26,095 bases of DNA from a virus. The notes under the pieces were generated by a model. It made no database searches and was not told the DNA's origin. It saw nothing but the letters and a program-made list of their open reading frames with translations. Below are positions 1-24,790 of the stretch, piece by piece. The position numbers were made by a program, and so were the translations under genes. Position 1 is the first letter of the stretch. Each line of letters begins with the position of its first letter. The stretch spans positions 1 through 26,095 of IMG/VR virus record IMGVR_UViG_3300020156_000074, one strand, 5' to 3'.

Positions 1-328
1 ACGACGGGATGCCGCCCGCGGCGTTCACGATCTCGATGCCGACCGACCACGCGTTGGCAGTGCCGGCATGGCTACAGCGCATGTCCGCGTCCACGTACTG
101 CACGATCTGCCCGCTCGGCTCGATCAGAAAGTGCACGGACAGGCCGCGATTGAGCAGAGTGCGGTGGACCTGCTTGCCGAGTCCTCTCCCGGCTGTCCAG
201 TGGTGGCAAACCGCGTGCGTGTCCTTTCGCGGCCTCAGGCCAGCAAAGGTCAGTCCGTGCTCGTGCCACGACGTGACCGGTGAGGCACACGGTACCTGCT
301 CGCCGCCGACTGTGATGGTGGAGGTCAC
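1..328 (-). CDS. N-acetylmuramoyl-L-alanine amidase endolysin, 3'-truncated by window edge
   Basis: The 109 visible codons read as the first part of an amidase_2/PGRP-fold lysin like T7 lysozyme, which cuts the amide bond between MurNAc and L-Ala in peptidoglycan. After about 40 residues comes AVCHHWTAGRG, whose His would be a zinc ligand. It is followed by LSVHFLIEPSGQIVQYVD, then CSHAGTAN and SVGIEIVN, the conserved core of this fold in the right order. The distal zinc ligand lies beyond base 1. The start is GTG (bases 328-326), overlapping the methyltransferase stop as GTGA, with AGGAGG four bases upstream. There is no obvious signal peptide, so export would need a holin. Family call is confident; completeness cannot be judged. 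Confidence 0.88.
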   Translation of the reverse strand, partial: MTSTITVGGEQVPCASPVTSWHEHGLTFAGLRPRKDTHAVCHHWTAGRGLGKQVHRTLLNRGLSVHFLIEPSGQIVQYVDADMRCSHAGTANAWSVGIEIVNAAGGIPS

Positions 329-1101
329 GCAGCCTCCTCTCCAGCCTTGCGGCCGTTGTCGTTGTCAGGAATCGAAATCAGTTTCGGTTCGGGTGGGAGC
401 ACGCGGAAGAGGCGCTCGACGCGGCCTTCCGACGCTTGACGCTTTTGCTGGCCGGACGTTTCCGGCCTGCGCCTCTCCATCTCCACGTGCGCAGGAACAG
501 GGCAGGAGAACTCCGTGACGAAAACACGCGTGCCGCGATCGGCCCATGCCTGACAGAAGCTCCAGAAACGGTCGTGATCGAACGCCGGGGCGCCACGGTA
601 TCTTTCCGTGCCTGCGTATGGAGGATCCGCAAAGACGCACTCTGGCGCTGGTGCTGTGTGCGGACACGCCTCGAAAAAAGACATCGCTGACAGCTCGCAT
701 GCAGAGATCGCTGGGAGGTCTCTCAACAGAGCCGCTCGCGTCTGTCGCGCCGGGTTCCAGTTCGGCTTCTTGTGGTGCCCGCGCGAGAAAGCGTGGAACC
801 ATCCGCCTCCGAAAGAACAGCCAAAGCCCGCGAACGCCTTGAGCGGGTTGTCGTCGTCGAGGCGCTTTGCGTTGCGCCACTCTTCCTCGCTGATCGAGTC
901 CGGCGGGTCCCATCCATCGCGCACAGCCTGGTACAGCGCGATCAGCGCCGGATTCGCGTCAGACACGAGCCCAGGCCCGTACTTCGCGAGCTGCACGGAC
1001 ACGCTCAGTCCGCCGCAGAACGGCTCCCACCAGTAGCCGCGTGGCGCGACGATGGCAGCGATCTCTTTCGCGAGACGCGACTTTCCGCCGAGGTACCGCA
1101 T
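325..1101 (-). CDS. D12-class DNA adenine-N6 methyltransferase (Dam-like)
   Basis: 258 residues. It transfers methyl from S-adenosylmethionine to adenine N6 in DNA. The order of motifs is that of the D12/Dam family: an N-terminal RYLGGKSRL segment (residues 2-10), motif I WWEPFCGG (24-31) for SAM binding, SDANPALIALY (48-57) as the second SAM-binding motif, and the catalytic FADPPYAGT (158-165) with DPPY. Length is close to Dam enzymes. Recognition sequence cannot be read from the protein; GATC is not avoided nearby (29-32, 104-107, 122-125). ATG overlaps the previous stop by one base (TAATG), and its own stop overlaps the endolysin GTG. A likely role is protection of phage DNA from host restriction. 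Its place inside a lysis cassette is unusual. Confidence 0.9.
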   Translation of the reverse strand: MRYLGGKSRLAKEIAAIVAPRGYWWEPFCGGLSVSVQLAKYGPGLVSDANPALIALYQAVRDGWDPPDSISEEEWRNAKRLDDDNPLKAFAGFGCSFGGGWFHAFSRGHHKKPNWNPARQTRAALLRDLPAISACELSAMSFFEACPHTAPAPECVFADPPYAGTERYRGAPAFDHDRFWSFCQAWADRGTRVFVTEFSCPVPAHVEMERRRPETSGQQKRQASEGRVERLFRVLPPEPKLISIPDNDNGRKAGEEAA

Positions 1102-1970: not shown

Positions 1971-2741
1971 TCACGCAGCCACGCCGTAGCGGCCCGAGAT
2001 GTACGTCTCGACGGTCGACCGTTCGTCGGCCGTTAGGACGCGGTTCCAAAAGATGACTTCGGCGATCGCCATGATCGCGCCGCCGCCGATCGTTAGGGTG
2101 GCTTGCGGTGCGCCAGCGCCGAGTGCGGCAGCTGGAACGCCCGTCGACGCTGCAACCAAGTTGCTGTCTAGCCTGTACGCCGCGTCGGACCAACTGCCCA
2201 TCCAGAACCCGGCGCCATCGTCCGCGTACGCGCTCGCCACGTCGATCGCGTTGATCGGGTTCGCGGTGCCGTTGCCGACTGCCCAACGGACCGAGTTGCT
2301 CGACGACAACAGCGACACGAACACGCCGGCAGACGTGCTGGCTGTGCTCGAACTGTTGCGCGTGGAGAAGATGCGGCCAGTCGTTACCGAGCGCGGGACC
2401 CCGATCACGTAGTGGGTGTGTGGGCCGTGTAGAGCCGTCCAAACACTCGCTGCGTCGGCCGACACCAGTGCGTGAGTGGAGCTAGGGAAGTCCAGCACAG
2501 CCGTGCCGCGCAGCTCCGATGCGGACGCGACAGTCGGCTGATTTGCTCCGGTCGACTGCGAGACCACACGGCCCCCAATCGAGTCGGTCCATGTCATGGT
2601 GGCGCCAGTGACGACGCCGGTATCAGCACGCCAGCGGTTTGATGGAGTCGTGGATGGGATGGTGTCGACGAATGAGCTGGTTAGGCGCGCGCCTGCGCGG
2701 ATTACCCGGCGAATACCAGCGCCTCCAAAGCGGCGATTCAT
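1971..2741 (-). CDS. LamG/concanavalin A-like lectin domain tail protein
   Basis: 256 residues. After a basic N-terminus (about 30 residues) the protein reads as a single jelly-roll lectin domain. It has NRWRADTGVV, a WTDSIGG strand, GTAVLDFPSSTHAL, an FSTRNSS strand, and the typical closing helix-strand AEVIFWNRVLTADERSTVE plus YISGRYGV near the C-terminus. That ending is a hallmark of LamG/laminin-G-3-like domains in phage tail and surface proteins. It likely binds glycans on the host surface as part of the receptor-binding complex. ATG overlaps the stop of the beta-helix spike as ATGA. There is no obvious virion-anchoring domain, so it may attach to the adjacent spike. The 33 bases after its stop hold only the next ribosome site. 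Confidence 0.75.
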   Translation of the reverse strand: MNRRFGGAGIRRVIRAGARLTSSFVDTIPSTTPSNRWRADTGVVTGATMTWTDSIGGRVVSQSTGANQPTVASASELRGTAVLDFPSSTHALVSADAASVWTALHGPHTHYVIGVPRSVTTGRIFSTRNSSSTASTSAGVFVSLLSSSNSVRWAVGNGTANPINAIDVASAYADDGAGFWMGSWSDAAYRLDSNLVAASTGVPAAALGAGAPQATLTIGGGAIMAIAEVIFWNRVLTADERSTVETYISGRYGVAA

Positions 2742-4258
2742 GTCGCAGCCTCCCGTGTGATAGTGCCGGTCACGTCAGCGTCGTACGCCTCATCCATCAA
2801 ACGCGAGTCCCACGACACCGAAGCGCCCGCGGCGTGCTCGATGAGCCCCGCGAACCGCACGTTTCGATTCACAACCGGGTACTCAAAATCAGCCGGATTC
2901 TCGGTCACTCGGTACGGCTCAAAAGATCCGGCGTACTCAGAGCGGATCGTGGCTCGTACGTCCACCACGGCGGTCTGTTTGTTCGCCTGTAGAAATCGCT
3001 GCTCGACGAAGCGCTGTACGGAGCTCGAGAGGTCGAAGCGCGTCCCCATGATGAGAATGTCCTTGGTGCGGACGGCCTCGATCACAGTGTTACACCCGTC
3101 CGCATTCGCTACGCGGCCGCCGGTCAGGCGTAGCGAGCTGCCCGAGTGAAGCTTGAAAATGGCGTTGGTGTCGGAGTACGGGGCCGGCACTGTGGCGCGG
3201 TCCTTCGCTCCGAACACCGTGCAGTTGTCCAGCTCAAAGTCACAGTTGCCAGAGCCATAGAAAGCGCCTGCCATCTCGCCAAAAACACAATTGCGGAATG
3301 TCAGGACCGTGCTCTCTCCATGCACCGAGTACCCGCGCTGCTGGTACACGATCAGCCCGTCGTAGATCACGGTGCCGACGCCGGGGCCCCACTGGTAGAC
3401 GGCGGCAGCGCGCTGGCGATCCATCAGAATCTTCGAGAACCAGCAATACTGCAAATTGCGCGTCTTGATTCCGTACTGGCCCTCAATGAGCTTCATGTCA
3501 CGGATGGTCAGACTGCGAAGGTTCTGCGTGTCTCCCTCAAACCGCCAAATGTCCTTGCCTGTGTCCGTCTGCTCAATGACCGTTGCGGCGCCGTCACCGG
3601 CTATCGTCAGGTGGCAGGACGTGTCGCCGGACACGCTGATGGCCAGGGCGTCGCTGATCAGATACGGCCGTCCGATGCCAGGGAGCCGAACCGTTTGGTA
3701 GCAGCCGGATGCGCCGTTGCGAAGCGCCCACTCGAGCGCGCGCAGGATCGATGCCGTGTCGTCGGCGTCCGTGGTCTTTCGGAAGTCTGGCGCGATCACG
3801 TGGCGCTCTGCAGATACTAGGCGCTTCATGCGTCGGCCGGTGGCCGTAACACGCACCGTCCCGCCGTTGTCCGGCGTGTCAACGTCGTCTGGGTCGGCCA
3901 CCCAAAGGCCGCCGCCGCCTGATCCCACGGATTCGCTGCCCGCCTGCACGAAGGTCGTGGTTGCGTCGGCGACAGATTCCAGGTCCGTCGATAGTCCCGC
4001 CGCAACCGACTTGGGCGAAACATGCACCCATCTGCCGCGAGGCAGCGTCTGGTCACCAAGTATTTCTGCACCGTCGACGTCGGCCGCGGACCACTCGCGC
4101 CAAGCGAACGTTCCTCCACCGCCGTCTCCTGGGTTTGAGCCGCCTGTACAGGTGACGATGCAACCGTCATAGGCAACGTACGTTGCCAGGCGAGCCTTCG
4201 TGATTCCCAGGTACCCAGCCCCGCTGGGGATTTGCGGACGACCGTCGAACGGATTCAT
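2738..4258 (-). CDS. tailspike protein 2: shared anchor plus right-handed beta-helix
   Basis: 506 residues from the ATG at 4258, which overlaps the previous stop as ATGA and is preceded by AAAGGAACGT; an earlier in-frame start at 4279 is less likely. Residues 7-84 match the N-terminal anchor of the neighbouring spike gene (PQIPSGAG, YDGC, VTCTG, PGDG, WREWS, RGRW). A linker rich in Gly follows (GSGGGGLW). From about residue 150 to 420 short beta strands recur (HLTIAGDGAATVIEQ, SLTIRDMKL, LTFRNCVFG, FELDNCTVF, LRLTGGRV), the rung pattern of pectate-lyase-like beta-helices. Such spikes bind and often cleave capsular or O-antigen polysaccharide. Catalytic residues cannot be assigned without a structure. 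Confidence 0.82.
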   Translation of the reverse strand: MNPFDGRPQIPSGAGYLGITKARLATYVAYDGCIVTCTGGSNPGDGGGGTFAWREWSAADVDGAEILGDQTLPRGRWVHVSPKSVAAGLSTDLESVADATTTFVQAGSESVGSGGGGLWVADPDDVDTPDNGGTVRVTATGRRMKRLVSAERHVIAPDFRKTTDADDTASILRALEWALRNGASGCYQTVRLPGIGRPYLISDALAISVSGDTSCHLTIAGDGAATVIEQTDTGKDIWRFEGDTQNLRSLTIRDMKLIEGQYGIKTRNLQYCWFSKILMDRQRAAAVYQWGPGVGTVIYDGLIVYQQRGYSVHGESTVLTFRNCVFGEMAGAFYGSGNCDFELDNCTVFGAKDRATVPAPYSDTNAIFKLHSGSSLRLTGGRVANADGCNTVIEAVRTKDILIMGTRFDLSSSVQRFVEQRFLQANKQTAVVDVRATIRSEYAGSFEPYRVTENPADFEYPVVNRNVRFAGLIEHAAGASVSWDSRLMDEAYDADVTGTITREAAT

Positions 4259-5316
4259 ACGTTCCTTTCGATTCGCCACGCAAAATTGCGCTGCGTGCCG
4301 ACGCCTGGAGCGGTGTGGATCCGAAAGCTAAACGCCGTCGTCGTCTTGTCGTAGATCTCGATCACGAGCGCGGACATCGGATCAGCCGCGCCAGTGATGT
4401 GCGCCGGACTGAGCACGGGGATGTAGTTTGCGTCAGGCTCGGTCCAGCCGAACGTTACGGTCGCTGTCGTGGCGGCGTCGAGGATTCCGACAACGCTGCC
4501 GCGCCTGCCCATGACGCCATTCGGCCCGATTGTGAGCTTTTGCAGGTTGTTGTTGCGGACGTCGACGAGGAGCCCCGTGGTCACGCCGGACGAGTCGATA
4601 AAAAGGCCTTTTGCGGCCGTTCCCGCGCCTGCAATGTCAAGCGAGATGCACGATGCGTTTGCGTCGCTGACGGCGGGCTTGTTGTGCGTGACCTTGATTG
4701 TGCCGCGTCCAGCCTCGTAGCCAGTGACGCCCAAGGATGAGTCCTGAGTGTTCGTGCTCTCGACCAGTACGCAATTGGCTGTCGCGGTCGTGCCGGTGTG
4801 GCTGAACTTGGCGCAGAAGCTTGTGCCCGTCGTCTCGCCGTAGATGCACGGTTGAGAAAACGTCGCATTGTTTGCGCGCACCGAAAACAAGCGGCCGGTT
4901 GGCGCGGCATGGGCGCTGTAGATGATGACGCCTGCGCCCGGATTGTCCGTGTTGTTGAGGTTGATTGCGCCGCCGACGCTCGAGCTGGACGAGGTGGTAC
5001 CGGTTTGCGTGATGGCGATCGCCGCCGACGTCGAGTCGTTGGTCAGGCTAAACGCGTCCGGCACGGGAGGCGTGATGCGCAGCCATCGCCCACGCGACAG
5101 CGCTGGATTACCCAGTACGTCCTCGCCATCCACGGTTGCGACTGACCATTCGCGCCAGGTGAACGTCCCGCCGTCCCCATCCCCCGGATCAAGGGCACCG
5201 GTGCACGTGACTACGCACCCGTCGTACGAGACGAAGGATGCGAGCCTTGCCGTGGTCAGCCCAAGATCACCGGCCCCGCTAGGGATCTGCGGGTGTCCCT
5301 CGAAGGGTCCAGGCAT
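4255..5316 (-). CDS. tailspike/tail fibre protein 1: shared anchor plus Ser/Thr-rich beta shaft
   Basis: 353 residues. Residues 8-85 are about two-thirds identical by eye to the anchor of the next gene (PQIPSGAGDLGL, YDGC, VTCTG, PGDG, TWREWS, SRGRW). The remainder is beta-rich and Ser/Thr/Gly-rich (SAAIAITQTGTTSSSSSVGG), with strands of a trimeric fibre shaft, and ends in a compact domain with VTFGWTEPDANYIPVLSP, YDKTTTAFSFRIHTAPG and FAWRIERNV. That ending looks like a fibre head or receptor-binding tip. The start is one base after the stop of the 141-residue gene (TGA, C, ATG). No clear hydrolase motif is seen, so this may be a binding fibre while its partner is the enzymatic spike. Confidence 0.78.
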   Translation of the reverse strand: MPGPFEGHPQIPSGAGDLGLTTARLASFVSYDGCVVTCTGALDPGDGDGGTFTWREWSVATVDGEDVLGNPALSRGRWLRITPPVPDAFSLTNDSTSAAIAITQTGTTSSSSSVGGAINLNNTDNPGAGVIIYSAHAAPTGRLFSVRANNATFSQPCIYGETTGTSFCAKFSHTGTTATANCVLVESTNTQDSSLGVTGYEAGRGTIKVTHNKPAVSDANASCISLDIAGAGTAAKGLFIDSSGVTTGLLVDVRNNNLQKLTIGPNGVMGRRGSVVGILDAATTATVTFGWTEPDANYIPVLSPAHITGAADPMSALVIEIYDKTTTAFSFRIHTAPGVGTQRNFAWRIERNV

Positions 5317-18206: not shown

Positions 18207-20141
18207 TCAGTTGACTCCAGGCATTAGGGGCACGTTCGGTACAGGTGGCAGCGGCGGCTCACCTGGCGGCATCATCTCGGGCGGCATCGCCATCGCCGGA
18301 TCCATCGGGACTTCGGGCACAGGTGCCGGCTTAGGCGCGATGCGAGCGATCTCGTCGGAGAGCGATTTCATGTAGTCGCGCAGGTTCTCGAGCACGTCAT
18401 CCGGCGCCTTCGAGTAGAGGCACTGGAGGTACGCCTTGCGCGCCGTATCGAGGCACAGGCTCAGGCCGTCAGCGGTCAAGATCGGGTCGATCTCGAAGCC
18501 GTTGCCGTCCATCACCTCCTCGACCTGCCAGCGCGAGTAGTCCACCTCGGCGAGCGCGTTGCTCGTCTCGGTGTCGAGGTCGGGCATGTCGAGGAGTTCG
18601 AGTGCGACCTGCTGCGTAATCATGCCGGCCTGAAGCAGGCCCATCACGTCGTCGCGCCGGCCTTTTGGGGTCGTGCTCAGCGAGGAGGTCGGGAAGATCT
18701 GCAAGCGCACGTCGTCGGGATCAACCTGGACGTCAGCCCATTTGACGCTGTTGATAAAGTCGCGTCGCCCGCGTCGGACCTGCGAGGTGACCGAGTAGCT
18801 CGGGTCCTCCTCGGTCGCGTCGTCGTTGAGCCGCGCGATGAGCTCGGCAACGTCGAGGTGCCAGCGCTCGTAGCGGCGCTGCGGGTGCACGTGGCGACGG
18901 CTCTGCACGTCGTCGGCGGCGCGAATGCCTACGGCGCTGTTCACGCCTTGGATGCGGTCTCCCTGTACCTGCTGCTCGCTCAGGCCCTCGTTGTTGAGGC
19001 ACTCCTCGCGAATGGCCGGGATGTCCGCACGCAGGTCAGGGAGCGTGCCGTCCCAGCGGAGCAGCTTCGGCTCTCCGCTCTCGGAGAACACCACCTGACC
19101 AGGCAAGTTCGTGATCTGGTCGGGGCCGAGTCCACTTGAGCGCGGAACGACCGTGACGCATTTTGAGTTCAGGTCCTGGCTGATCTCGTACTTCTTGATC
19201 AGCTTGTTGATGCGCCGCTGGCTCTCCTTGGTGCGCGCGACAAGCGATTGTCCGTACCAGCCCACCGGGAAGTCCGCGTACTTTAGGAACGCGAACGGAA
19301 ACTCTTGATGTTTGTACGGCTCGTCCACCAGCGTCGCATTCGAGACGCACAGCACGTGTCGCCCTAGTTTCGACGCTGGCAGCTCCTTGCCCTTGACTGG
19401 TCTGATGGCTGGGCCGAGGTGCCACGACTCGGCGACGAGCACGGAGTCAGCCGCGGACTCGCGCGTCAGAAAGAAGTCGTCGCGGTCGTCGATGTCGACA
19501 CCGGAAGCGTTCTCGATCTTGTCGGCGAACCTGGGATATAGCTCCTTGAGACGCTCGCGGTTCACCGGGTAGACGCGGTACAGGTTGCGCGGCTTGCCGT
19601 GGATCGCCTCGTTGTGGTCGACGAGGATCTCGTTGCTCAGCACGCGGTCCAGGCACACCCGGCGCGTTTCCGGGTGCAGATAGCCGAACACGCCGGCTAC
19701 GTCGCAAATGGCTGCGTCGCGGAAGATCTTCGGTCCGAGCTCGTCGATGCGGAGGTGGCGCATCTGTCCGCTCAGGGCCAGCGTCCGCTCCTTCGCACGG
19801 CGCTGCATGCTCCAATCGCCGGCCTGCGTCAGAGCTTGGAGCGTTGGCTTGGAGCTGGAGACGATACTCGCCGCCGTGTCCACGATGGACAGGCACAGCA
19901 TGTACCGGCTCTTCTCGCTGCCGCCATCGAGACGCGACTTTGCAGCTTCCATGGGCGTGCCGTACAGGCCGCGCCCAGCCGGATCGTCGTTCGACACGAT
20001 CCGCATGTGGAGCCGGTTCATCCGGCGGCGTTCCTTTTGATGCTTGCGCAGGAAGCCGGTCAGACTGAACACGGCGGCGTGAGTGTCCCGCTTGCTGGTC
20101 CACCACTTGCGCTCGGTCGCGTTCGGGGTCTGTGCGTCCAC
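18207..20141 (-). CDS. portal protein
   Basis: 644 residues. The GTG start at 20141 has GGAG five bases upstream; an ATG at 20160 is out of frame. Recognisable parts are RFADKI, EFPFAFLKYADFPVGWYGQS (about 280-299), then KESQRRINKLIKKYE (305-319), the stem/clip helix pattern of podovirus portals. Next are a nucleic-acid-facing helical region and VMGLLQAGMITQQVALELLD. The last 40 residues are Pro/Met-rich (PKPAPVPEVPMDP, MPPEMMPPGEPPLPP), a disordered barrel-end tail. The protein forms the dodecameric ring through which DNA is packaged by TerL and ejected. It lies directly before the scaffold gene, the usual order. It starts the second transcribed block after the reverse-oriented regulator. 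Confidence 0.85.
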   Translation of the reverse strand: MDAQTPNATERKWWTSKRDTHAAVFSLTGFLRKHQKERRRMNRLHMRIVSNDDPAGRGLYGTPMEAAKSRLDGGSEKSRYMLCLSIVDTAASIVSSSKPTLQALTQAGDWSMQRRAKERTLALSGQMRHLRIDELGPKIFRDAAICDVAGVFGYLHPETRRVCLDRVLSNEILVDHNEAIHGKPRNLYRVYPVNRERLKELYPRFADKIENASGVDIDDRDDFFLTRESAADSVLVAESWHLGPAIRPVKGKELPASKLGRHVLCVSNATLVDEPYKHQEFPFAFLKYADFPVGWYGQSLVARTKESQRRINKLIKKYEISQDLNSKCVTVVPRSSGLGPDQITNLPGQVVFSESGEPKLLRWDGTLPDLRADIPAIREECLNNEGLSEQQVQGDRIQGVNSAVGIRAADDVQSRRHVHPQRRYERWHLDVAELIARLNDDATEEDPSYSVTSQVRRGRRDFINSVKWADVQVDPDDVRLQIFPTSSLSTTPKGRRDDVMGLLQAGMITQQVALELLDMPDLDTETSNALAEVDYSRWQVEEVMDGNGFEIDPILTADGLSLCLDTARKAYLQCLYSKAPDDVLENLRDYMKSLSDEIARIAPKPAPVPEVPMDPAMAMPPEMMPPGEPPLPPVPNVPLMPGVN

Positions 20142-20253
20142 TCGGCTCCGGAGTTGTCATGGCACGCAGTCGGCAAACAGATCGCCCGCGGCCCAATACT
20201 CGGATGGTGGACTGTCCCTTTCATGCGTGCGCGTACAGTCATCAGGCGGCACA

Positions 20254-20307
20254 GCCTGTTTCCATGCACGTCAAGCACTTTCACGCCGCGCGCGCATGAA
20301 AACAGGC
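20254..20307. promoter_or_regulatory. inverted repeat in divergent gap, candidate operator
   Basis: GCCTGTTTCCATG at 20254-20266 and CATGAAAACAGGC at 20295-20307 are reverse complements except for one base (12 of 13). The arms are about 41 bases apart centre to centre, near four helical turns, so both would face the same side of the helix. They lie between the portal start (20141) and the HTH gene start (20323). They could be operator halves for the HTH protein, or a hairpin with a 28-base loop in RNA read from either strand. A TTGACG sits on the minus strand at 20274-20269, but no good -10 box follows. Confidence 0.5.
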
Positions 20308-20322
20308 GTAAGATGCTCAAGC

Positions 20323-20541
20323 ATGGGAACAGACCAAGGCGCCGTTCTGCTCAGGGTCTACATGGCCCGACACGACTTGTCCGTGAAAGAGCTAGCCGCG
20401 AAGATGGACCTCGACGTGATGACCATCACACGGTGGCGTCGCGGCAGGTCTAGGCCAGACGGCGACATGCGTGTGAAGCTCGAGCAGCTGACGGATGGGG
20501 AGATTCCGGCTAGCGCTTGGGTGCGCGACGAAGCTGCTTAG
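20323..20541 (+). CDS. Cro/XRE-family helix-turn-helix regulator (72 aa), opposite strand
   Basis: The only supported plus-strand gene. 72 residues: LLRVYMARHDLSVKELAAKM, then DLDVMTITRWRRGRSRPDGD, and LEQLTDGEIPASAWV. The S20-V-K-E-L-A-A-K to T34-I-T-R-W-R-R-G region is a clear helix-turn-helix, and the ending T-D-G-E-I-P-x-x-x-W is typical of small Cro-like repressors. The start at 20323 has no convincing ribosome site; an alternative ATG at 20296 would add nine residues and lie in the inverted repeat. A TAAGAT element at 20309-20314 might give a leaderless transcript. The stop overlaps the convergent 83-residue gene's stop (TTAG). It could autoregulate and affect portal-operon transcription. 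Confidence 0.72.
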   Translation: MGTDQGAVLLRVYMARHDLSVKELAAKMDLDVMTITRWRRGRSRPDGDMRVKLEQLTDGEIPASAWVRDEAA

Positions 20542-20789
20542 CCAGTTCCCGGGACGTACTCGGCACACTCCCGTTCGAACAGCTCCTCCTCAGTGAGCTT
20601 TCGCGGCTCGCGCGCTGGCAAAGGCAGCGTAGGCTCGGCGGGAGCGGTGAGCGGTGAATGCGTAGGCGGCGTCTCGCGGAAGCTGATGCTCACCACGCCA
20701 ACGGTTACGCGCGATGCGCCCGCGTCACGCATGCGGATGGCGAAAGCTTCTACCTCTTCGGCGGTCATGGTTGCAGGGTGCTTGTCCAT
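20538..20789 (-). CDS. small protein following TerL (83 aa)
   Basis: 83 residues, ATG overlapping the TerL stop by one base (TGATG). It begins DKHPATMTAEEVEAFAIRMR, then AGASRVTVGVVSISFRETPP, a Pro/Thr-rich linker, and an acidic end (EPRKLTEEELFERECAEYV). The pattern EEV..F...MR..GA..V.VG....F recurs in small phage proteins encoded between terminase and portal, but I cannot name a function. A helix plus a short strand pair and a disordered tail suggest an adaptor or assembly factor. Its stop codon lies inside the convergent stop of the plus-strand regulator gene, so the terminase block ends exactly here. Confidence 0.65.
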   Translation of the reverse strand: MDKHPATMTAEEVEAFAIRMRDAGASRVTVGVVSISFRETPPTHSPLTAPAEPTLPLPAREPRKLTEEELFERECAEYVPGTG

Positions 20790-22198
20790 CAGTACTCACT
20801 CCAATCGTCTTCGCTCTGCCGCATGGCAGCCTGAACTCGGTCGATGCGTTGTTGCTGGGCCAGGATGGCGGCCACGTCAGGCGGAGGCGGAGGCGGCGGG
20901 GCCAGTTCGTTCAGGAAGCCGAGGTGCGCCGTAAAGCCGTAGAGCGCCGAGTCGCTGGCGTCATTCTCGGCCTGCGGGTCTTCTTCTTCCTTGCGCTCGT
21001 CCTTCCAGGTGAGCGTGCCCCATTCGTCGATGAGCACGGCGCACCCCGGCTCGTAGACTTTCGCGCGCTCCGATCGCAGCTCGTCGTTGAGCGTCTGCAT
21101 GTGGCCACGCTTGCCCTGCTTATCGGCGTTGTGCATGAACATGCCGGCGCGGTCGCCGTAGCGGCGATTCCAGTTCGTGACGTAGACCTTTCCGAGGCCG
21201 CCAGCGTCGCCGACGATCTTGCTCGGCTTGTACTGGTCCACCAGACGCTTCGTGATGTCGGTGGCAGCGTCGGGCTCAAGCCCGGCTTCCTTCTGCGAGT
21301 GGATCGCGATGGCCGTGCGTGACTTGGGCGGCGTGTACCAAACCGTCCAGGCCGTGGCGTTGTTGATGCCGTAGTCGCAGCCGAGCGTGAACAGACCTGA
21401 ATAGTCGATGTCCAGCGCCTTGAGGCCGTCGCGCGCCTCGACGTAGGCATAGCAGGCCATGCCGGCGTCCTCGCACCACTCGGCCAGGATCTCGCGGCGG
21501 AAAGCCGGCGTCTCAAACGTCCACTTCTTGCGCTCGAGCAGCTCCCGAATGAACACCTCGGGATCGCGTGGAAACTTCGGGTTTTGCCTGACCGTCCAAT
21601 GCCAGCGCTCGAACCCGGGCGTCTTGCCGGTGCTGGTACGGAACCAGTAGCCGAACCGGCCGACACCGGGCGTGCCGTTCAGCACCAATGTGCCGTCAAG
21701 GTCGCCGAGCGCTGCTGTTAGCTTCTGATCAACGAGGTACTCCAGTCGCTTGGCGTAGGAGTGTGGCTCGTCAGCGATAAACAGACGCACGCGGTATCCG
21801 CACGCCTTCTCGACCTCCGGCATTTTGTCGAAGCCGAGCAGACGCACGTGGGCGCCGCGCCGAGTCTCGATGAGCCCCTGGTCCTCGCGCATCCGCCAGC
21901 CGAGCTCGTGTGTTTTGTTGATCTCCTTGAGCTCGCCCCACACGAGATCCTTGGCGACCGAGCGCGTCACCGCCGAGTACAGGCACCAGTCTTTCGGTCC
22001 GCTCTTCTCAGCTTCGACAGCCAGGTAGCTGGCGTCCATCGTCGTCTTGCCGCCGCGACGACCTGCCAGGATCGACTTCAGCTTGGCGGCCGACTCGATG
22101 ACACTGCGCTGTTGTGCGTGCAGGTTCGAGAGGATGGCGTTCCGCGTCGCAATCCGCCGCGCCAACTCCTCCGCTGCCGCACGCTGCGCAGGTGTCAT
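20789..22198 (-). CDS. terL: terminase large subunit (packaging ATPase and nuclease)
   Basis: 469 residues. It powers DNA translocation into the procapsid through the portal and cuts the concatemer. ATPase part: Walker A AGRRGGKT (45-52), Walker B LFIADEP with D143 and E144, and the coupling segment LVLNGTPG (171-178). Nuclease part (RNase H fold): TLGCDYGINNA with D275, SKIVGDAGG with D331, and ENDASDSALYGF with D413/D416 as the third acidic site. A seven-proline run (434-440) separates a C-terminal helix (AAILAQQQRIDRVQAAM), an unusual tail that could contact portal or the small subunit. ATG directly follows the preceding stop (TGAATG). Length fits the family. Confidence 0.95.
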   Translation of the reverse strand: MTPAQRAAAEELARRIATRNAILSNLHAQQRSVIESAAKLKSILAGRRGGKTTMDASYLAVEAEKSGPKDWCLYSAVTRSVAKDLVWGELKEINKTHELGWRMREDQGLIETRRGAHVRLLGFDKMPEVEKACGYRVRLFIADEPHSYAKRLEYLVDQKLTAALGDLDGTLVLNGTPGVGRFGYWFRTSTGKTPGFERWHWTVRQNPKFPRDPEVFIRELLERKKWTFETPAFRREILAEWCEDAGMACYAYVEARDGLKALDIDYSGLFTLGCDYGINNATAWTVWYTPPKSRTAIAIHSQKEAGLEPDAATDITKRLVDQYKPSKIVGDAGGLGKVYVTNWNRRYGDRAGMFMHNADKQGKRGHMQTLNDELRSERAKVYEPGCAVLIDEWGTLTWKDERKEEEDPQAENDASDSALYGFTAHLGFLNELAPPPPPPPDVAAILAQQQRIDRVQAAMRQSEDDWSEY

Positions 22199-23255: not shown

Positions 23256-23599
23256 CGCGTCTCCTCGCGCGAACTCATGAGCCCGCGCATTACCTGGTGG
23301 GCTCGCGCTGTCGACGGGTGCATGACCTCGCTCGGACGGCCTGCCCGGTCCCACAGAGCGCGCAGCACGCCCAGGTCGCGATACGCGCCCTTCACGTATG
23401 CGGCGCACGCCTTCCGGCCGACATGAGCCAGCCAGCCCAGCGCGATGCCATTGCGGGCTCGAGCCACAAGCACCACGCCGTCGCGCATGCACCGCTCGAT
23501 GTCTTTGCGGTCGTGGCGCGTGTTCAGCATCCAGTCCTTGAGCACCATGTTGCGCTCGTCGCTGCGCATCACGTCAATCTCGTAGTCGAGGATGGTCAC
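23252..23599 (-). CDS. GNAT-like small protein (115 aa)
   Basis: 115 residues, GTG start overlapping the TerS stop as GTGA. The middle reads GVVLVARARNGIALGWLAHV, then CAAYVKGAYRDLGVLRALWD. Two beta strands, a turn and R74-D-L-G77-V-L followed by a helix are the acetyl-CoA-binding motif A of the GNAT fold, though shorter than in full enzymes. The N-terminus has DERNMVLKDWMLNTRHDRKD. Short GNAT-like proteins are frequent in phage packaging and structural modules; whether they acetylate anything is unknown. If enzymatic, a target cannot be inferred. Confidence in the gene is high, in the fold moderate. Confidence 0.6.
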   Translation of the reverse strand: MTILDYEIDVMRSDERNMVLKDWMLNTRHDRKDIERCMRDGVVLVARARNGIALGWLAHVGRKACAAYVKGAYRDLGVLRALWDRAGRPSEVMHPSTARAHQVMRGLMSSREETR

Positions 23600-24084
23600 T
23601 GCTCGCCCTCGTCTCCGCTCGGCAGCTTCTTATCGCCAGTCACGATCGCCAGTAGCTCCGAGTCGGGCAGCTGAGCCACGAATGCGTGCTTGTGCTCGAC
23701 GGGGCCGCCCCCGGGACCAGAGACCTCAACCTTTTGCGCGAGGTCGCCGAACAGCTTCCGGTAGCGCTTTTCAAGCTTCCACTTGTGCCAGCTGGCCCAC
23801 GCGCTCGAGCCGCCCTCGGAAGAGGCGATGTCCTGCTCGGCCTTCTGTTCAGCTGCCCGCGCCTGCTCAAACAGCGCCGGCAGCACCTCGCGCTGGAAGG
23901 CAAGGCACGCCTCGTCCTCGCCTTCGAGCCAGCGGTAGTAGGTCTTCTCGTGCACACCGGCAGCGAAGGCCGCCTCGATCTGGAACCCGCCGCCGCGGAT
24001 GACCTCGGCCGCTCGCTGGCCGGCCGCCCGCATCTCATCCACAGAACGCGCGCGCGCGAGACTGGCGGTTGAGTCAACCGACAT
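23596..24084 (-). CDS. terminase small subunit candidate
   Basis: 162 residues. The N-terminal part (about 15-55) has a helix-turn-helix pattern: EMRAAGQRAAEVIRGG, FQIEAAFAAGVHEKTYYRWL. A helical middle (60-90) would mediate oligomerisation. Next, WASWHKWKLEKRYRKLFGD (97-115) and VEVSGPGGGPVE (119-130) form the C-terminal motif common to phage TerS-type proteins (W...LE.RY...F......V.V.GPGGGPV), where the tail contacts TerL. Function: recognises the packaging site and forms a ring. It starts inside the end of the previous gene (11-base overlap). Five genes separate it from TerL, which is unusual but not rare. Confidence 0.8.
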   Translation of the reverse strand: MSVDSTASLARARSVDEMRAAGQRAAEVIRGGGFQIEAAFAAGVHEKTYYRWLEGEDEACLAFQREVLPALFEQARAAEQKAEQDIASSEGGSSAWASWHKWKLEKRYRKLFGDLAQKVEVSGPGGGPVEHKHAFVAQLPDSELLAIVTGDKKLPSGDEGEQ

Positions 24085-24460: not shown

Positions 24461-24640
24461 TCAGACAGCAGGCAGCGCCTTGATTGCGGCGAGCGCCGCT
24501 TTGACGTTCGACGTCGTCACGCTGAGTAGCTTGGCTATCTGGGCAGGCTTCATCCCAGCAGCGTCAAGCGCCAGAGCAGCGATCAGCATGGACTCGTCCA
24601 TCTCACCCACCAGATCGACCCGTCTGTAGCGATTACGCAC
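24461..24640 (-). CDS. small helix-turn-helix protein (59 aa)
   Basis: A 59-residue frame beginning with GTG two bases after the stop of the previous ORF. Sequence: RNRYRRVDLVGEMDESM, then LIAALALDAAGMKPAQIAKL and LSVTTSNVKAALAAIKAL. The second half is a helix-turn-helix resembling sigma-70 region 4 or small DNA-binding domains (AGMKPAQIAKLLSVTTSNVKAALA). An alternative ATG at 24601 would give 46 residues retaining the motif. It might be a transcription regulator or a DNA-site recognition subunit next to TerS. Too short for a confident family. Confidence 0.6.
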   Translation of the reverse strand: MRNRYRRVDLVGEMDESMLIAALALDAAGMKPAQIAKLLSVTTSNVKAALAAIKALPAV

Positions 24641-24642
24641 AG

Positions 24643-24771
24643 TTAGCTCGTGCTAAGCAACAACGCAGACCGGGCTCTCTCACAAACGCCACCGGATTGC
24701 AGTAGTTCCGCAATGTTAGGAGTGATCTCCCCGTATAGCGCAGCGGGGTCGCGCGCCGGCTCTCTGCTCAC
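24643..24771 (-). CDS. small ORF (42 aa), unknown
   Basis: 42 codons from a GTG at 24771, preceded by AAGGGAGAG about eleven bases upstream. Sequence: SREPARDPAALYGEITPNIA, ELLQSGGVCERARSALLLST. The second half is an amphipathic helix. No family. It fills the otherwise non-coding space between the zinc-ribbon gene and the HTH gene, lying 19 bases after the former and 2 bases before the latter, which fits the dense packing. Evidence is only spacing, start and ribosome site, so it may be spurious. Confidence 0.4.
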   Translation of the reverse strand: MSREPARDPAALYGEITPNIAELLQSGGVCERARSALLLSTS

Positions 24772-24790
24772 GTCTTTTCGATCTCTCCCT

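Follow-up and report, generated by a model that had tools for sequence, protein, structure and literature searches.

The window analysed here is the whole of the IMG/VR record IMGVR_UViG_3300020156_000074, a linear virus record of 26,095 bases with a GC content of 64%. With a single exception, its supported genes lie on the minus strand and form a leftward array. This array comprises, in order, small genes, terS (23596-24084), four small genes, the terminase large subunit gene terL (20789-22198, minus strand), an 83-residue ORF following terL (p83; 20538-20789, minus strand), the portal gene (18207-20141, minus strand), a scaffold-like gene and the gene of the major head protein, and continues past the latter with tail and internal proteins up to a DNA methyltransferase. 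Profile matches identify TerL (phrog_2, E 9.7e-21), the portal protein (phrog_156, E 4.4e-6) and the major head protein (phrog_14242); the portal gene carries a GGAG a few bases upstream of its GTG start. For p83 no Pfam, PHROG or NCBIfam family is found at a useful score. The methyltransferase-like gene (325-1101, minus strand; phrog_56, E 7e-24) follows the tail genes downstream, at the left end of the window. At 2738-5316 (minus strand) two adjacent proteins of 513 and 353 residues have a similar N-terminal region, PF.G.PQIPSGAG.LG.T.ARLA..V.YDGC.VTCTG, which may represent a duplicated anchor of tail spike or fibre proteins. Neither a replication nor a lysogeny module is seen in the 26-kb record and, since a replication module is absent from view, the record is probably part of a larger phage genome.

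The exception is a 72-codon ORF on the plus strand (ATG 20323 to TAG 20541), located between p83 and the portal gene, convergent with the former and divergent from the latter. Its reverse orientation, reported in the initial annotation, is borne out by the gene map, as are the interlocked stops: the stop codons of the ORF and p83 overlap in TTAG (20538-20541). The description of the ORF as a helix-turn-helix (HTH) gene of 72 residues likewise holds. It is a coding gene, with a GC content by codon position of 0.66/0.45/0.74 and phage-like codon use. Its codon-usage score, from a model trained on large genes of the same phage, is 0.165 per codon, a value that is reached by 1 of 688 stop-free wrong-frame windows (0.15%) and lies inside the true-coding range, 15% of the true coding windows scoring the same or lower. 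The protein matches the Pfam families HTH_3 (28.1 bits, cut-off 23; E 2.1e-6) and HTH_26 (23.6 bits, cut-off 22). AlphaFold2, run on the single sequence, predicts a compact five-helix model with a mean pLDDT of 90.2 and a pTM of 0.76, although the five models span pLDDT values from 43 to 90, so that the predicted fold derives from one of them. The predicted helices comprise residues 5-17, 21-28, 32-40, 47-56 and 63-66, and the position of the first helix supports the start at 20323. Structure matches of the model obtained with Foldseek and VIA are all XRE regulators (CylR2, HigA, P22 c2 and TP901-1 CI), with Z-scores of about 9-10.6, and 9.2-9.3 for the P22 c2 repressor. The model thus shows a five-helix lambda-repressor-like fold, and profile and predicted fold together place the protein among the XRE/Cro-type DNA-binding proteins. 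A HigA-type antitoxin was considered and rejected: the HigA profile model scores 17.5 bits against a cut-off of 47.7, and p83, the neighbouring ORF, is convergent with the gene and matches no toxin family.

A divergent non-coding gap of 181 bp (20142-20322), larger than any other inside the array, separates the HTH and portal genes. It is not clearly, as had been claimed, the only gap above 110 bases: a stretch of 150 bp at 24641-24790 is empty unless a 42-residue ORF is accepted, and each end of the record has about 330 bp in which no gene is clear. The inverted repeat noted earlier in the shared gap is confirmed, with arms of 17 nt (20254-20270 and 20291-20307) that are 88% complementary and 20 nt apart. 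It is better described, however, as two of three copies of one motif of 12-14 bp, GCATG-N4-CAGRC. Site 1, GCATGGAAACAGGC (20254-20267, minus strand), is an exact match to the 14-bp form GCATGNNNNCAGRC; site 2, GCATGAAAACAGGC (20294-20307, plus strand), makes up the inverted repeat together with site 1; and site 3, GCATGGGAACAGAC (20321-20334, plus strand), spans the start codon of the HTH gene (ATG, 20323-20325). In the 12-bp form the sites read GCATGGAAACAG (20256-20267, minus strand), GCATGAAAACAG (20294-20305, plus strand) and GCATGGGAACAG (20321-20332, plus strand). Exact matches in the record to the 12-bp consensus GCATGRRAACAG are limited to these three sites, and the same three are the only exact matches to the 14-bp form. 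The sites are 40 and 27 bp apart. Positions 20212-20226 (GCATGAAAGGGACAG, minus strand) were considered as a fourth site and dropped for their misfit to the 14-bp form.

The 26 kb were scanned de novo for 12-mers of any sequence that occur in three non-overlapping copies within 120 bp, with at most one mismatch; the motif locus is the sole such place. Among 500 dinucleotide shuffles of the gap, one contains a triplet of this kind. The thresholds for both the triplet scan and the motif were chosen with the sites already known. A looser scan with up to two mismatches is non-discriminating, 25 of 259 windows containing three or more copies. Between the half-sites GCATG and GCCTG (CAGGC read on the other strand) there is a difference of one base, so that a dimer could recognise each site as a quasi-palindrome. 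This is no more than suggestive; the internal dyad is imperfect and comprises four of five bases in sites 1 and 2 and three of five in site 3. A repressor of the mycobacteriophage stoperator type, which has many asymmetric sites distributed over the genome, was rejected as a model, with the exact motif confined to the gap and scattered matches with one or two mismatches near chance level.

A search for sigma-70-like promoters yields none on either strand in 19900-21000 and none in the whole record, where their count is slightly below that in shuffles. Since the whole record is devoid of such matches, promoters of another type may be in use in the host, or the phage may have its own; the scans cover sigma-70-like promoters and Rho-independent ends. 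A possible -10 element, TAAGAT (20309-20314, plus strand), was missed by the scan and read from the sequence; it is weak. Together with the lack of a Shine-Dalgarno sequence before the ATG at 20323 it would suit a near-leaderless mRNA of the HTH gene, a suggestion that is itself weak. No terminator-like site is present at the interlocked stops where p83 and the HTH gene converge, or elsewhere in 19900-21000, and Rfam and tRNA scans return nothing.

On the minus strand, positions 20254-20307 fold into an almost unbroken stem, and an 84-nt stretch has a minimum free energy of -34.9 kcal/mol (z = -2.3; 4 of 200 shuffles are as good). The repeat might consequently act as RNA, as a long hairpin in the portal mRNA leader with a role in RNase III processing, stability or pausing, rather than as a set of operators. 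We regard this as very improbable, because it leaves the third motif copy, over the HTH start codon, unexplained, and because some 100 bases separate the end of the stem from the portal start, so that the ribosome site stays free. A terminator function is ruled against by the absence of a T-run after the stem.

The phage has no close relatives in the collections searched. TerL, the portal protein, the major capsid protein, TerS, p231, p1058, p585 and the HTH protein were compared with the INPHARED phages; TerL, the portal protein, the major capsid protein, p1058 and the HTH protein with IMG/VR; and TerL and the HTH protein with 84,980 prokaryote genomes and plasmids. These searches reveal only very distant TerL proteins and HTH proteins of 35-36% identity, where the single-protein scans of IMG/VR and the genomes use exact 8-residue words and miss diverged relatives. 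A tblastn search of 50,697 phage records gives no match for the portal protein, the major head protein, TerS or two of the large structural proteins, and the operator pair, used as a DNA pattern, has no match in IMG/VR. The best identities of TerL, 22-26%, are with pelagiphage and rhizobiophage TerLs.

The closest named relative of the HTH protein is a Cro-like protein of Microcystis phage Mae-JY02 (36% identity over 67 residues), the gene of which adjoins a divergent XRE repressor gene. A second relative, an IMG/VR phage protein of 35% identity, also has inverted repeats in its upstream gap. The Mae-JY02 arrangement raises the possibility that the HTH gene is a displaced part of a lysis-lysogeny system, encoding a Cro or an immunity repressor of a temperate phage with its partner gene outside the record, as does the 26-kb linear record itself, with neither a replication nor a lysogeny module in view. 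Nevertheless this seems quite unlikely. The partner of a phage Cro is a divergent CI-type repressor gene of the immunity region; the neighbours here are p83 and the portal gene, and no CI-type repressor, integrase or excisionase is seen in the record, which is probably a fragment, and the TerL search of the 84,980 prokaryote genomes, which detects close relatives only, gives no prophage relative.

The synteny of terL and portal was examined in 53 loci with a distant TerL (21-28% identity). The two genes are usually adjacent or nearly so, and where a portal gene was called the gap is at most 62 bp, with the exception of three loci (122, 1952 and 2028 bp). Reverse ORFs tested in two of these three gave no HTH match. 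Most junctions thus lack an insert, and a counterpart of the HTH gene was not found in the larger gaps, or among the reverse ORFs close to portal, that were scanned. An HTH insert between terL and portal is accordingly not general among the sequences compared and, because the two genes are usually adjacent there, not ancestral in the distant loci, which are too distant to date its origin.

The main rival explanation fits this pattern. It holds that the gene is a moron-like, self-contained and autoregulated HTH cassette with its own promoter, regulating only itself and perhaps acting on the host or on superinfecting phages, while the head genes are transcribed through it without being timed by it. 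A precedent is phage SPP1, where the small moron ORFs 3-5 lie between gp2, the terminase large subunit, and gp6, the portal protein (PMC6316719). Like the HTH gene these are accessory genes that interrupt the terminase-portal module; unlike it, they are not reported in that paper as a DNA-binding regulator with operators. The comparison of the gene with morons, made in the initial annotation, therefore stands as far as its orientation in an otherwise one-directional array and its absence from distant relatives are concerned, but the defining flanking promoter and terminator are not found: no terminator follows the gene, and the sigma-70-like scan recognises no promoter for it. Moreover, its GC content and codon use match those of the phage, and sites 1 and 2 are on the portal side, not tightly on the HTH promoter. 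We consider this rival possible but rather doubtful.

The reading that we prefer, at a probability of roughly one half, is that of a stand-alone Cro-type regulator that has its own candidate operator region and may also act on the head genes. The protein would bind the three motif sites as a dimer and would repress its own promoter, site 3 being positioned such that the bound protein would block transcription or early elongation of the HTH gene. On the portal side, a repressor on sites 1 and 2 would hold down or block leftward transcription into the portal and head genes. As no terminator lies where p83 and the HTH gene converge, strong late transcription from terS and terL would continue into the HTH gene in the antisense direction and lower its expression. 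The expected outcome is a temporal brake on early expression of the head genes that is overridden once late transcription is strong. In favour of this reading are the HTH_3 match, the predicted XRE fold, the coding statistics, the motif triplet confined to the gap, the terminator-free convergent stops and a similar layout in the Gordonia phages Ecliptus and ODay; against it count the post hoc motif thresholds, the imperfect dyad, the absence of a recognised promoter on either strand and the lack, in the collections searched, of a homologous phage that could show conservation of the gene or its sites.

The two parts of the preferred reading differ in strength. An operator that overlaps the start codon is the usual geometry of negative autoregulation in Cro/CI-type operators, and with three motif copies, one of them on the HTH start codon, autoregulation is well supported by the anatomy of the locus. 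Autorepression is thus the part that the sequence best supports, and control of the head genes appears less certain. The earlier proposal of a head-gene switch is plausible because the only candidate promoter region for portal contains sites 1 and 2; yet no leftward promoter is recognised there, and transcription from upstream may be the only source of portal mRNA. The other role suggested initially, the silencing of related phages, finds no specific support. A more far-reaching version, a late-stage switch at the terL-portal junction in which the Cro-like protein separates expression of the packaging enzymes from that of the portal and capsid, and antisense readthrough from the terminase genes turns the repressor off, is unlikely; if true, it would couple head building to terminase transcription.

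Three operator sites in a divergent gap with an autoregulatory geometry are the layout of Cro/CI-type operators. With the operator regions of P22, lambda and 434 the locus shares the XRE fold, the three related operator-like sites in a divergent gap and this geometry. It differs from them in the spacing of its sites, in lacking a partner repressor gene and in its flanks, where portal and p83 take the place of early or lysogeny genes. For the proposed function a parallel is provided by p4, a small phage DNA-binding protein that uses repeated sites in a shared promoter region to switch from early to late transcription (PMC3100819), where the sites in the present record are candidates only; p4 further differs from the HTH protein in its N-hook DNA-binding motif and its binding site, and it activates a late promoter.

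The closest anatomical parallels are the Gordonia phages Ecliptus and ODay, in which the reversed genes 16 and 17, the latter encoding an HTH protein, lie inside the structural operon, between the tail assembly chaperone and the tape measure gene and divergent from another HTH gene. As in the present record, a small reverse-strand HTH gene is embedded in a structural operon, convergent stops overlap by four bases (in Ecliptus in CTAG, at the end of the gene 17 cassette), and the divergent gap contains a repeat or, in the same cassette of ODay, a palindrome. In the Ecliptus gap between the HTH genes 17 and 18 (L087, 8812-8901), TGCACGTATGCAA occurs twice, the second copy lying over the start codon of gene 17, as site 3 does over that of the HTH gene; these copies are likely operators of a switch embedded in the structural operon, as predicted from the sequence. 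The Gordonia cassettes differ in their site, which is not terL-portal, in the extra gene 16, in the second HTH gene as divergent neighbour and in the motif; no functional test of them was found in the literature searched. Small reversed HTH cassettes in structural operons are thus already known, and the terL-portal site and the present operator set are new instances: the placement of the HTH gene is unusual, the type of switch familiar.

The usual assumption for phages is that the head genes are transcribed together in a single late block. If the preferred reading is true, a repressor whose operators separate terminase from portal would mean that packaging enzymes and shell proteins can be timed separately, and the locus would be a compact unit of 400 bp in which repression and antisense transcription can be set against each other. 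From the similar anatomy of the Gordonia phages, embedded cassettes of this kind seem to recur. Elsewhere in the array, the 150-bp stretch at 24641-24790 precedes a 59-residue ORF upstream of terS (24461-24640, minus strand) that is HTH/sigma-region-4-like, with Pfam (E 0.0014) and phrog_3910 (E 0.0055) matches both below the cut-offs, and which is possibly a second regulator.
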